From IMG/VR virus record IMGVR_UViG_3300047497_000280, positions 1-41,092 of that record: a stretch of DNA of 41,092 nucleotides. The stretch is one strand, 5' to 3'. Positions within the stretch are counted from its first letter, which is position 1. Each line of letters opens with the position of its first letter. Below the pieces are notes generated by a model. The model had not been told where the DNA came from and did no database searches. It saw nothing but the letters and a program-made list of their open reading frames with translations. Made by a program: the position numbers and the translations under genes. The stretch is from a virus. Shown here one piece after another: positions 13,712-40,554 of the stretch.

Positions 13712-13920
13712 TTCAGGATTTTTTGCAGTTGATCGCGCAATTTGCCCCAGCTCTTTTGATCACCCTGGCAGGCAATCATGAGTTCGAGCGTCTCACGCGC
13801 ATGCTTGCGGCGATGCGATTCGGCGGACAGGTTCAATAGTTCCCAACTCATTTCCAGCGCGTGGTTGATGTCCAATGCGCACAAGGCCGCCAGATCTGCT
13901 ACCGCTTCGGCGAGCCCGAC
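13708..13920 (-). CDS. C-terminal extension of tail assembly chaperone (GT-type, made by frameshift)
   Basis: An open frame in the -1 register runs from about 14103 to 13708 and ends exactly at the tape measure start. Its region past the chaperone stop (13899) encodes a sensible helical domain (residues such as ALDINHALEMSWELL and HARETLELMIACQ). No good start codon opens it. Siphophages make a G and a longer GT chaperone here by -1 frameshifting, so I treat this as the T part. Coordinates give the portion that is not covered by a credible zero-frame protein. Confidence 0.7.
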   Translation of the reverse strand, partial: VGLAEAVADLAALCALDINHALEMSWELLNLSAESHRRKHARETLELMIACQGDQKSWGKLRDQLQKILK

Positions 13921-33724: not shown

Positions 33725-33940
33725 TTATTTTCGCCTGGGGATTGCGTTCGCAGCCTTTTTGTGTTTGGCCACAATAAGGCAGCCGTGGAAACTGCCATTC
33801 TCATTGGCAAAGGCATCAGCGCTCCGCACCTCGTTCGTGCGATTCATGCCGAACCGGGTCAAGAGAGCCGCATCAGCCATGGTTTCAGCAACCAAATCGA
33901 AAGCAAAGCAGCCGGCATGTTCAGCAAAGGTAATTTTCAT
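33725..33940 (-). CDS. Small hypothetical protein
   Basis: 71 residues from the ATG at 33940, coupled by ATATGA to the DGQHR gene; the longer frame to 34024 is rejected because it runs through that gene. Contains FAFDLVAETMADAALLTRF then SFHGCLIVAKHKKAANAIP. No recognised family. Confidence 0.55.
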   Translation of the reverse strand: MKITFAEHAGCFAFDLVAETMADAALLTRFGMNRTNEVRSADAFANENGSFHGCLIVAKHKKAANAIPRRK

Positions 33941-35055
33941 ATCACTCCGAACTTTGCCGTCCTCCGATAAAGGTTCATCGCCACCACGTCGATCCAGCCT
34001 TGGTTCTTCCAGATTGCCAGCCATTGACCAGCGTTGCCGTCGATGCGCGCCATCAGATCAGTAGAGGAAAACGTTTCACTCAACGTTTCGCCGATCTTGG
34101 CCGCTTCCGTACTGAGTGGTCCAAACTTTTTGACCGCTACCGGCTTGTCATCCGCCGATCGCAAAAAATCTGGCAGCGGCTGGGCATAAATTGCGCAGAT
34201 CTTTTCCACCCGGACCTTGTGTAACTTCATTATCCGGATATAAGCCTTGTCTGAGTTCACAATCACCTGGGGCGTGTTCTGTCCATCCACAAACGCTGCC
34301 ATGTGATGGAATGTCACCTGGCGGACCAGCGCATTATCTTCACGACTACCGGGCCCCATAAGCCAGTTGCGCAATGGAAGGATCGGATTTCCCGCGGCAA
34401 GGTTTTCGCCCGTCATCAGACGATTCAGAAAATCGCTCGTCTTGTCCGCCCATACCGCCCGGCCCATGGCAATGCAGGCAATCACCGTCGATTGCTTGAT
34501 GCCATGCTCCTTGATCGGATTGGCCAACACCCATTCCAATTCCTTTTTATAGAGCGCAAACACCGCAAGGATCGTGTCCGTCGAGGACTTACGCACCCGG
34601 CTCAACCCAAAACTGATTGCCGCCAGAGCGTTACAAATTTGCACCACGCGGCCGGCGTCGCGTTTGTCCACGTCGTGCTGCACGTGAAGTTGGTCCGCTA
34701 GCGTGCGAGCAGCACCACGGTCCACGGCGTCCATCGTCTTGCGCTTGTCAGTCGCGGCTGGCCATCCAGAAGTCACCAGCATCAGCACGGGCGACTTGGC
34801 TCGCACGATTGCCTGCAGACGATGCTGACCATCGATCAGGTTCTCGTCGGCATCGAAGGCAATCCCCTGGTGAGTTGTCATCCATGCGCCGTTCCGCATA
34901 TCAATCGTGTAGCCCTCAACCATCGCATCCTTCAACCGGCGGTTCTTACGGTTGTGATGTAGCCAATCCGCCGCCAGCTCCGGCGTCACTTTCACGAACG
35001 TGAACTTGACTGCCTCAAAGGGCGTTTTTTTTAAATCGGCGCTGGGGATTTTCAC
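33937..35055 (-). CDS. ParB/Srx-like DGQHR-motif protein
   Basis: 372 residues from GTG 35055. The fold signature IDGQHRLQAIV (Asp75-Gly-Gln-His78-Arg) marks a ParB/sulfiredoxin-like domain; DGQHR proteins are common in phages and some are nucleases. The rest is helical. Its real start may lie further upstream: an ATG at 35100-35102, two bases after the Gam stop, opens a frame into a 13-base G tract and would join this gene if the tract had 11 or 14 bases. With 13 bases only the GTG start is in frame. Confidence 0.75.
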   Translation of the reverse strand: MKIPSADLKKTPFEAVKFTFVKVTPELAADWLHHNRKNRRLKDAMVEGYTIDMRNGAWMTTHQGIAFDADENLIDGQHRLQAIVRAKSPVLMLVTSGWPAATDKRKTMDAVDRGAARTLADQLHVQHDVDKRDAGRVVQICNALAAISFGLSRVRKSSTDTILAVFALYKKELEWVLANPIKEHGIKQSTVIACIAMGRAVWADKTSDFLNRLMTGENLAAGNPILPLRNWLMGPGSREDNALVRQVTFHHMAAFVDGQNTPQVIVNSDKAYIRIMKLHKVRVEKICAIYAQPLPDFLRSADDKPVAVKKFGPLSTEAAKIGETLSETFSSTDLMARIDGNAGQWLAIWKNQGWIDVVAMNLYRRTAKFGVI

Positions 35056-35062
35056 GATTCTA

Positions 35063-35075
35063 CCCCCCCCCCCCC
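35063..35075 (-). repeat. 13-base poly-G tract upstream of the DGQHR gene
   Basis: Thirteen G on the coding strand, seven bases before the GTG start and 24 bases past an upstream ATG at 35102. Long homopolymers are prone to slippage. The upstream ATG is placed just after the preceding gene, and the frames join only with 11 or 14 G. It could also act as a ribosome-binding G-rich stretch, or be a sequencing artefact. Confidence 0.9.
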
Positions 35076-35104
35076 GATTTTTTCAGAAATGTGATTTGGC
35101 ATGA

Positions 35105-35659
35105 TCAATTAAGTTCGGGTTTTTCCGCCTTCTTGCTAAGTTTGTCCGCCTTGACCTCGAGGGGCTTGACGCTGAATTTTTCCTCGGTCTTGCGCACGAT
35201 GCCCAGCGAAAGCAGGACCGCGTCGTCGAGCTTTTCCAAAGCTTCAAGGTTCGGCTCCTGGCGAGTGCGCGTCAGTGATTCCTCGGTGAAGGCCGGCGCC
35301 TCTTCGGTCTTGTTTGCCCGCTTGAGTTCCTTCTCGCAGGCCAGCTTGATTTTCAGGATCACCTTTTCCTCGTCGTCAAAATCCAGGGAGGTGGACTTGC
35401 GGAACGAGATCGAACCAAATGGCGTGGCGTGCGTTTTGCGATCGTCGGGAAATAGCTCCGGGTTGCTTACCGCAATTTCCCGCAGCTTGGATTCGATGTC
35501 GCCCAGGCGAGCCTTGGTGTTGGCATGCTCGGGCAGCAGCGGCCGGGCAGCAAAGATCTGGCTGCGGTTTACTTCGGCCTCGATGGTCTGGAGTTGGGCG
35601 GCCAGATCGCTGAACTCAGCGAGCAATTCATTCAGGTTATTGTAACGTGTTGGTGTCAT
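35105..35659 (-). CDS. gam: Mu Gam-like DNA-end-binding protein
   Basis: 184 residues fitting Phage_Mu_Gam: helical N terminus (LLAEFSDLAAQLQTIEAEV), the core FGSISFRKSTSL near 82-93, then KLACEKELKRANK and the tail LSLGIVRKTEEKFSVKP. Gam binds double-stranded DNA ends like Ku and blocks RecBCD-type exonucleases, protecting phage DNA. It lies in the early operon as in Mu and starts in an AAAATATG context. Confidence 0.85.
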   Translation of the reverse strand: MTPTRYNNLNELLAEFSDLAAQLQTIEAEVNRSQIFAARPLLPEHANTKARLGDIESKLREIAVSNPELFPDDRKTHATPFGSISFRKSTSLDFDDEEKVILKIKLACEKELKRANKTEEAPAFTEESLTRTRQEPNLEALEKLDDAVLLSLGIVRKTEEKFSVKPLEVKADKLSKKAEKPELN

Positions 35660-35683: not shown

Positions 35684-35911
35684 TTAAAAATTGCTGAGGT
35701 GGAAAATTGCGTTCGCGAACTTGAAGCCGGCGCGGAATATTTGTCCCAAGAAATTGACCAGCATGCCGGCGCCGAAGAAAGATCCAACCACGGCGGAAAA
35801 TACCAGGAGGATATTATACCAAGGGAAAGGCTTTGGGGATGGTAGCTTCTTATCCGCCTCGTTGATGCCACTGGCTTCGCCACGTAATGGGATATGATTG
35901 ATGGTTCTCAT
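35684..35911 (-). CDS. Small membrane protein
   Basis: 75 residues. A hydrophobic segment at about 34-56 (ILLVFSAVVGSFFGAGMLV) forms one membrane helix; the C terminus is amphipathic and aromatic. It starts with its ATGA on the stop of the zinc-motif gene. Located ahead of gam where Mu has kil, but no similarity is claimed. Could be toxic or modulatory to the host membrane. Confidence 0.6.
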   Translation of the reverse strand: MRTINHIPLRGEASGINEADKKLPSPKPFPWYNILLVFSAVVGSFFGAGMLVNFLGQIFRAGFKFANAIFHLSNF

Positions 35912-36183
35912 GGGTTTTGTTGTTGGGATGCAACGTCACGTTGCCGTTTCTGAATTGCCAGGCAGCGCCGGCAATCCGGTTCCAGGAGGACTTCCTGCCA
36001 TTGCGCGCTGCGCGCTGAATTGCCGCCGCCGCAGATCGGGGCGTGGTTGGCGTTCACGGCGTGGACCCGATGCCGGCCGGGCTTCGTGTTTTTCGTGATC
36101 GCGTTCACGACGCCCCCCCCCCCGGAATTTACCTGGTTGACCAGGGCGCGACTTGTGGGCGAAATGGCTTCCAGGAGAGTCAT
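35908..36183 (-). CDS. Small zinc-motif phage protein containing a poly-G tract
   Basis: 91 residues from the ATG at 36183 (ATGA overlap); a longer frame to 36258 runs through the previous gene. It has a His/Cys set HRVHAVNANHAPICGGG and a later CRRC, the pattern of a common small phage zinc protein (H...CG...C.kC). The GGGG at residues 21-24 comes from an 11-base G tract. Change of tract length would cut off the whole zinc motif. Function unknown. Confidence 0.6.
   Translation of the reverse strand: MTLLEAISPTSRALVNQVNSGGGGVVNAITKNTKPGRHRVHAVNANHAPICGGGNSARSAQWQEVLLEPDCRRCLAIQKRQRDVASQQQNP
36113..36123 (-). repeat. 11-base poly-G tract inside a coding region
   Basis: Eleven G on the coding strand, in frame, encoding GGGG. 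One base more or less would shift the frame and end the protein early, so this looks like a slippage-prone switch. The same early region has the 13-base tract at 35063. Confidence 0.9.
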
Positions 36184-38376: not shown

Positions 38377-40554
38377 TCATTGGCCGGCACTGCCAAGTGC
38401 GTTGGCCAGCTGGGCCTGACGGGAAAGTCTTGCGCGGCGTTTTGCCACTTCATCCGCGGTCGGTGCCGCGAAGATATTCGGGCGCTGCGGAGCGGCTGCA
38501 GCCGGCATGCGCGGTTCCGGCAATGGCCCAGCGGTCGGCGTGCCGCCGATCTGGACCTTGTTCACGCCACTGCTATTGCGCGCCTCAACCGCCTTGATCG
38601 CCGGCTGACCTGGTGGCCGGCCGGTGAACGCCGATCGCACAAAGATGCGAGCGGCTTTTTGCTGTTGCTTCATCAGAGCGCCGCCGTCCGCCTGGGCGCC
38701 GGCGCCGTAGAGCTGCTCGACGGAATAGCGCGGAAGATCATCCGGGACATTGGCGGCGTAGGTGGTGGAAGCTGGCACATCGAACTCGGCGAAACCCATG
38801 AAGTCGCCGTCCTTGAGGCCATCATGATTGGAGCTGTTCAAACCTTCGCGGTTATAGATCGCGGCACCGAGTGATGGCTCCGTTTCATCGAGTTTGACGT
38901 ACACTTTGTAACCATCGCCAAGCTGGGCAAAATTAAGGGCCCGGAAATCAAAGTCACGGGCGGCAACTGTCACGGTCACAAAGCCCCCGCGAATTGTTCC
39001 CGATCGCAACGTCGGCAGGAATGCCGCCAGATCATGAGCTGACAACGGAGTTAGCTGCCACTTCTGAGTATCACGGGTCCAGATCTCGTCGAACGTCCCA
39101 TCCTTGCGTGGCAACGAATTTACGAAGTCGAACGTCTTTTGGATCCGCTCCAGCAGTTCGTTTTGGTGGGGAAACCCGAGATCCCGCGGATGATGACTGC
39201 CGGCCCGGACCCGGCGCAGCTGCTTGGCCGCCAATTCAAATTCGCCGGCATGACGGCCGATGTTCAGAAAGTCTCGAGTGAAGCCGGCTAAATACGTCTG
39301 CAATGGATGGAACGATCCTTCCAGATCTGCTTTGCCGCGGGCGCTGTAACAGTATTCAACCTCGACGCCGATCGCGGTCAGGCCGTCCGTCAGGTTCTGG
39401 CGCTCCTCGGCAGCCATTGCCGGCCGTTCGTAATGGTCCTCAGTCCACAAATCGCCCTGCAACTTGAATCCAGCGATGTTGTGTGCCGCCCAAACGCTGC
39501 GTTCGATCCGGACCTTGCGCGGCTTGCCGTAGATCTGACAGAAGCGACGGAGGAAACGCAGGATGTCTGCCGACGTGTAAGACTCCCGCGGGCGGGCAAT
39601 CAGTTCCACCGCTCGCCAGCCGCCCTTGAGACACCGGGCGTACAGTCCTTGCCGTGATAAAATTGCGCCAGCCGCGGCGTCAGCCGCATTGAGTCCAGAC
39701 TCCGTCTGGCACCAGAACGGCTGGTTGACGCTCATGTCGTCCAGCTCGATGACCCAGCCGGCCGGCAGATACGCGCGGCTGCCATCGGGCAATCCGATCG
39801 TCTTGTCGCGCTTGCCGGAAAATCCGTTCAACTGGAAATGTTTCGGCCCGCGGATAAGCGCTTCGATTTCCGGCGTGAGCTTCCCAAGGAACCTGGTCAA
39901 ACAAACCGGAAATTTTCCGGCCAATAATTTCGGCTTCAGGGTTTCCGGGCATTCGGGCTCGAGCGTGAACATCTTCAGCGTCGCCGCCATATTGCCGGTC
40001 CGCCGATCGTTGGTGGCTGAATCGTTTCTGGCCGCCATCGTGGCGACGTGGATCTCCCGGAGCTTTTCCTTCACACCCGGAATCAGCAGGAGTGATTCCC
40101 AGGCACCGGTACGGCCGCTATTGTGTGTTTGATCTACCAGCTTTGACCGAATTGCCGGGTATTGGGTGGCATCGTCCAGATCATGGTCGGCAACGCGTTT
40201 CTGCCAGCGCCATAAAGTTACACGTGGAACACCGAGTTGCTCGGCCGCTGCCTTGGGATTGAGTCCTTGGCCCAGCAACGCGGCAAATGCCCGTAGCTGC
40301 ATCAACCGGCGGTCCGCCTCGGCGTAATTGCCGACGCCAGGCGAATTGAGTCCAGACACCGTCTGGGAAATTTTAGTGGCAGCCCTGGGGGTCACCACAG
40401 GGCTGCCTACGCAATGAACCGATTGCGGGCGTTGCGCGCGCTCCGCAGAAGTGGAAACCACGGAACTCGGGTCGGTGGCTCGTGGTTCCCCTGGCCCGGA
40501 ACTGCCAGTGTTTATGCCGCCACCGAAATTGGTGCTCTCAACTGAATCAATCAT
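38377..40554 (-). CDS. MuA-like DDE transposase
   Basis: 725 residues. A helix-turn-helix lies near 95-120 (AAEQLGVPRVTLWRWQKR). RNase-H-like core: first acid Asp272/273 (WVIELDDMSV), second position Glu351 (KVRIERSVW), last acid Glu412 (GKADLEGSFHPLQ). Spacings 79 and 61 are close to MuA (67 and 56). Beta-barrel region near 480-570 and a Pro/Ala-rich C terminus follow, as in MuA. It cuts and joins phage ends to target DNA. The start ATGA overlaps the preceding gene. Confidence 0.93.
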   Translation of the reverse strand: MIDSVESTNFGGGINTGSSGPGEPRATDPSSVVSTSAERAQRPQSVHCVGSPVVTPRAATKISQTVSGLNSPGVGNYAEADRRLMQLRAFAALLGQGLNPKAAAEQLGVPRVTLWRWQKRVADHDLDDATQYPAIRSKLVDQTHNSGRTGAWESLLLIPGVKEKLREIHVATMAARNDSATNDRRTGNMAATLKMFTLEPECPETLKPKLLAGKFPVCLTRFLGKLTPEIEALIRGPKHFQLNGFSGKRDKTIGLPDGSRAYLPAGWVIELDDMSVNQPFWCQTESGLNAADAAAGAILSRQGLYARCLKGGWRAVELIARPRESYTSADILRFLRRFCQIYGKPRKVRIERSVWAAHNIAGFKLQGDLWTEDHYERPAMAAEERQNLTDGLTAIGVEVEYCYSARGKADLEGSFHPLQTYLAGFTRDFLNIGRHAGEFELAAKQLRRVRAGSHHPRDLGFPHQNELLERIQKTFDFVNSLPRKDGTFDEIWTRDTQKWQLTPLSAHDLAAFLPTLRSGTIRGGFVTVTVAARDFDFRALNFAQLGDGYKVYVKLDETEPSLGAAIYNREGLNSSNHDGLKDGDFMGFAEFDVPASTTYAANVPDDLPRYSVEQLYGAGAQADGGALMKQQQKAARIFVRSAFTGRPPGQPAIKAVEARNSSGVNKVQIGGTPTAGPLPEPRMPAAAAPQRPNIFAAPTADEVAKRRARLSRQAQLANALGSAGQ
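39688..39709 (-). repeat. 22-bp dyad repeat, copy 1 (inside transposase gene)
   Basis: ATTGAGTCCAGACTCCGTCTGG on the plus strand. Contains inverted arms CCAGAC / GTCTGG with a three-base spacer. The same 22-mer, with one base change, occurs at 40345-40366. Confidence 0.8.
40345..40366 (-). repeat. 22-bp dyad repeat, copy 2 (inside transposase gene)
   Basis: ATTGAGTCCAGACACCGTCTGG, matching the copy at 39688-39709 except one spacer base and keeping both dyad arms. Lies in the N-terminal linker of the transposase. Possible protein-binding site. Confidence 0.8.

Follow-up and report, generated by a model that had tools for sequence, protein, structure and literature searches.

The 41,092-base IMG/VR virus record IMGVR_UViG_3300047497_000280, which we analysed over its whole length and refer to as the window, carries a Mu-like early region on its minus strand, where a MuA-like transposase gene is followed by MuB, small genes, Gam and then a gene for a 372-aa DGQHR protein. 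MuB and Gam have Pfam matches, and the putative MuA role of the gene at 38377-40554 rests on its position, an HTH_23 match and kin in L005 and L011. The latter, a prophage-bearing Verrucomicrobia subdivision 3 MAG, was reached via MuA (66% identity); MuB as a query against IMG/VR found no relatives. The early region thus brings together homologues of MuA, MuB and Gam, as in a Mu-like transposable phage; the phage belongs to uncultured Verrucomicrobia-type bacteria. The features considered here are as follows.

38377..40554, minus strand: MuA-like transposase gene (context), 66% identical to that of L011
36911..37978, minus strand: MuB-like gene (context), Pfam match
35908..36183, minus strand: small CxxC (zinc-finger-like) gene running through a G11 tract, 91 aa; its LLEAISPT N-terminus is common to L005 and L043
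36113..36123, minus strand: second tract, G11, in frame in the small CxxC gene; orthologous G8 in L011 at 13863-13870
36106..36108, minus strand: GTG 4 nt past G11; the orthologues in L011 and L006 have their ATG start at this point of the alignment
35105..35659, minus strand: Mu Gam-like gene directly upstream of the DGQHR gene, Pfam match
35063..35075, minus strand: G13 homopolymer with G on the coding strand, read directly; at this place L043 has G10, L011 G8 and L184 C9
35056..35062, minus strand: 7-nt spacer TAGAATC between G13 and GTG; TAGAGAC in L043, and TGCAATC after GGAGG in L187
35052..35102, minus strand: leader ORF as it stands with 13 G, MPNHISEKIGGGGVES, whose TGA overlaps the GTG start; L043 and L011 have a leader built alike (M..N.SE..)
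33937..35055, minus strand: DGQHR gene (ParB/Srx-like, phrog_5931, E 1e-42), 372 aa from GTG
33937..35102, minus strand: potential long form by in silico translation, only if the number of G (n) is 2 mod 3; 388 aa at 14 G

Read along the minus strand, the Gam stop TGA (35107-35105) is followed by TC, an ATG (35102-35100), a 27-nt leader, ATGCCAAATCACATTTCTGAAAAAATC, and the G13 run (35075-35063), after which the spacer leads to the GTG at 35055-35053. This direct reading bears out the first-pass annotation, which had described a 13-G tract and an ATG at 35102 two bases past the Gam stop, although the length comes from an assembled consensus and the true number may differ from 13 by one base or several. 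When translation begins at the leader ATG, the product has 13 aa at n=12; at n=13 it has 16 aa and ends on the TGA overlapping the GTG; at n=14 it has 388 aa, in frame through the DGQHR gene, with n=11 in the same class. The TAG within the spacer would end translation in the phase with n = 0 mod 3. The annotation's predictions that the G13 frame ends at the overlapping TGA, and that 11 or 14 G would enter the DGQHR/ParB-like gene in frame, are thus reproduced by translation. A change in length alters the leader-initiated product in silico, and the GTG start stays available in all phases.

The G13 run is not a chance feature of the window. Apart from G13 and G11 the longest G or C run in its 41,092 bases is 6, and the observed count of GGGGGGGG positions was reached in 0 of 100 dinucleotide shuffles. 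Both tracts have G on the coding strand and lie at gene starts, each 4-7 nt before a GTG, so that a mutable repeat stands at or near the 5′ end of the coding sequence, as in contingency loci.

A tract occupies the same position in four of the five close orthologues: G13 in the window, G10 in L043, G8 in L011 and C9 in L184, the sole poly-C case among only four tract-bearing orthologues. The annotation had named an identical length in all relatives as evidence against its reading; the lengths differ, in a comparison drawn among distant relatives at 41-66% amino acid identity. The run is in frame in L011 and L184 and out of frame in the window and L043, which share a phase, 13 and 10 both being 1 mod 3. 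In L011 the gene begins ATGAGTCTTAATAACTCTGAAAATCC-G8-TA-ATG, in frame, giving 380 aa. L043 (66% identity) and L184 were both reached by DGQHR alignments; the former reads ATGCAAAATAATTCTGAAAAAATC-G10-TAGAGAC-GTG, and the latter, a prophage in a genome of the same order, reads ATGAGCAAAACCAAAT-C9-AGAGCGCC, in frame. The fifth orthologue, L187 (58% identity), has no tract: the last bases of its upstream gene, TCGTGA, overlap the GTG, and GGAGG with a 7-nt spacer stands ahead of this start. The window and L043 share the flank TCTGAAAAAATC-Gn-TAGA without a difference, have 68% DNA identity over the gene and differ in the type of upstream gene, and the leader pattern M..N.SE.. is kept in three phages (the window, L043 and L011) with different upstream genes. 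Judged from these relatives, the tract is conserved and not an accident.

Among 89 homologues inspected, only L043, L184 and L011 had a G or C run longer than 6 at the start besides the window, and the 86 more distant ones had none. In a tree with modest supports of 82-95, the tract-less L187 falls inside the tract group and L184 is outermost; L187 being nested there, the simplest history would be a single loss of an ancient tract, made of G in one lineage and of C in the other. The tract is not accounted for by local run density, since the related Mu-like records L187, L006 and L005 contain no run of at least 7 G or C anywhere and the tract at the DGQHR start is the sole G8+ run in the L043 record. 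Searches of IMG/VR returned no near-identical record with the window's flank apart from that of L043 itself; DGQHR as a single-sequence query found no relatives there, whereas alignment queries did.

These comparisons bear on the reading of the tract as an assembly or homopolymer sequencing error, or as a functionless chance run. The exact length of 13 in an assembled consensus is uncertain, and long G runs abound in Verrucomicrobia genomes, with an estimated 120 or so G8+ runs in G001, the genome of L011, and 40 in another, G528. However, the tract recurs at the same place in independent assemblies, which leads us to reject a pure sequencing artefact and answers, for the relatives, the annotation's concern about homopolymer error; moreover, the window has no other G or C run above 6, and three related records have none of at least 7. 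The reading was already disfavoured, and we regard it as highly improbable. A host-wide habit of placing poly-G before starts was likewise rejected, as the G8+ runs sampled in G001 were not enriched at starts. In a sample of viral loci, G7+ preceded starts in 7 of 49 and C7+ in 1 of 49; the sample was partly selected for G runs and is therefore not used as evidence. G001 itself, a 5.3 Mb Verrucomicrobia MAG, has roughly 120 separate G8+ runs including G13 and G18, and may hold many contingency tracts.

We also considered a mobile DNA motif, GAAAAAATC-Gn-TAG, which matches 53 viral stretches, and rejected it because the G10 cases outside L043 reduce to one phage in triplicate (L147, L164 and L170, 99.98-100% identical, all G10) plus a contig end (L131). 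In these four records GAAAAAATC-G10-TAG lies just 5′ of a start codon, the phages are unrelated to the window, and the gene upstream of the motif in L147 ends in KKKSGGG.

The main rival that remains is a pure ribosome-binding role, in which a GGAGG-type Shine-Dalgarno (SD) sequence became GGGGG and was lengthened by slippage, the length being neutral, the leader dispensable and any five G able to pair. In silico, the energy of pairing with the anti-SD is -11.8 kcal/mol for poly-G and -13.4 kcal/mol for a GGAGG control, which places the G13 start third, and the two tract starts third and fifth, among the 37 starts of the window. The tract precedes the start codon by 2-7 nt in the window, L043 and L011, and the 7-nt spacer of the window is a proper SD spacing. 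In L187, where the Gam stop overlaps the DGQHR GTG, the same gene has the same GTG and the same 7-nt spacer as the window, and differs in having no leader ORF and a canonical GGAGG exactly at the tract's place; this points to the GTG as an authentic start and to the tract's site as an SD position, where an SD role alone could keep a G run. Against this explanation, the C9 of L184 pairs with the anti-SD at only -2.1 kcal/mol and cannot serve as an SD, so that slipperiness is kept and ribosome binding lost, the two properties coming apart there. Furthermore, runs of 8-13 exceed what an SD needs and cost stability, yet are kept across large divergence; the leader is retained in three phages despite their different upstream genes; and the tree topology suggests that the tract predates the GGAGG of L187. 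We therefore consider a ribosome-binding role alone possible but rather unlikely.

The same pairing data reshape the switch that the first-pass annotation had proposed. Its wording of two distinct products is not clearly right, since the GTG offers the core protein a start whatever the phase, as indicated by the canonical SD at that place in L187 and by the poly-G pairing energy; the contingency-locus pattern itself holds in position, kept in four of five close orthologues, and in length, which varies between these relatives. With the core available from the GTG at every tract length, a change of length in the window is expected to alter the N-terminus, long or short, or the dose, and not to silence the gene. 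In L184 the upstream ATG is a plausible start with no good internal one, and the gene would be closer to on/off.

A further possibility is that RNA polymerase or the ribosome slips on the G run and makes both forms from one DNA, whose length need not vary. G13 is long, the window and L043 share a phase, and polymerase slippage on poly(A) tracts in Buchnera yields in-frame mRNAs, a precedent according to a citing passage in PMC2831843. On the other side, L011 and L184 differ in the length and phase of the tract and even in its base, and we hold this explanation improbable.

The second tract, absent from the earlier annotation, has a comparable arrangement. G11 preserves the frame between the LLEAISPT N-terminus and the CxxC part, which in L005 and L043 are fused without a tract. 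In L011 the corresponding gene reads G8-TAAA-ATG, out of frame, and in L011 and L006 the CxxC part begins at a Met aligned with the window's post-tract GTG, so that the G11 gene has the layout of the DGQHR gene, joined where the latter is split.

Collectively, the G13 run is probably a slippery switch, putative as it stands, that decides how the protein begins. The explanation we favour, at about even probability, is a slippery homopolymer, kept by selection, that stands 5′ in a gene of the Mu-like early region and acts as a long/short switch. Slipped-strand replication would add or remove G bases within a population, and n mod 3 would set whether the leader ATG reads into the DGQHR core, giving the leader plus a Gly linker (388 aa at 14 G). 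At n=12 or 13, leader translation would end just short of or on the GTG, and in the out-of-frame states the core would be made from the GTG by stop-start coupling, with poly-G as the SD, so that both starts may be used and the two forms may differ in function. The window, at G13, would be in the short-form state; in this phage the switch would be long/short and probably also one of dosage, and in the C9 relative nearer to on/off. Such a switch is favoured, on comparative grounds, by the C9 run that may retain slipperiness and not SD function, and by a second tract in the same cluster with the same layout and an L011 orthologue; counted against it are that L187 manages without a tract and that the window and L043 are in the same phase. 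More tentatively, and with somewhat less confidence, Verrucomicrobiota Mu-like phages may share a conserved contingency module, in which one or two early genes carry, where they start, a slippery run of G or C that gives each population a long/short (or high/low) mix of a ParB-like protein and the run is also the ribosome-binding site.

The protein itself fits its family assignment, D75, Q77, H78 and R79 being invariant in 35 homologues. A structure model has a mean pLDDT of 86.9; in it, residues 13-112 resemble the N-domains of PadC, Srx and ParB with a modest Z of about 6, the best Foldseek E being 0.15, and residues 308-372 resemble a winged helix, also at modest Z; a sequence search of solved structures with the DGQHR profile gave chance matches only. 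The first residues are poorly determined in the model, so a leader and Gly linker look tolerable there. For some ParB-fold fusion proteins in prophages an anti-defence or phage-host interaction role has been suggested (PMC12704722). The DGQHR gene sits behind different types of Gam gene in the window, L043, L011 and L187, as a movable module might.

Most known phase variation concerns surface and restriction genes of bacteria. The unusual features here are the phage early gene, the retention across large divergence and the overlap with a ribosome-binding site. The window tract resembles the poly-G and poly-C contingency loci of Campylobacter and Neisseria in its homopolymer near the 5′ end, its length variation between relatives and its n mod 3 frame logic. 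In contrast to those loci, the gene that holds it belongs to the early region of a Mu-like phage and is not a surface gene, the tract also stands in the SD position so that no phase is clearly off, and it is known from lengths that differ between relatives. In Haemophilus lic genes, tetranucleotide repeat number selects among start codons and gives graded expression; the window likewise combines a repeat tract with several start codons, but its repeat unit is a single nucleotide and an internal start follows the run. As in Campylobacter contingency loci, where a coding-strand G tract is read as poly-Gly (PMC539331), the G stands on the coding strand. Akkermansia muciniphila, a verrucomicrobium, has long G runs, and phase variation has been proposed for its capsule genes (PMC3048395). 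Within the limited literature that our search covered, no phage-encoded homopolymer switch of this kind was found, an absence that proves little. If an early gene of a transposable phage does keep its run through such divergence, phages would be hedging their own replication, defence or lysogeny functions, and the tract illustrates a simple route by which one element could be both ribosome-binding site and frame switch.

Length differences and dense runs were also seen elsewhere. Two contigs of an unrelated phage, 99.83% identical, carry a G run flanked by a TGA stop and an ATG start; it is G9 in one (L168:5564-5572) and G8 at the corresponding site of the other (L175), a difference due to natural slippage or assembly error. 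A contig end (L047:1-190) holds G11, G23, G9, G13 and G16 within 190 bases, the last followed by TAATG.
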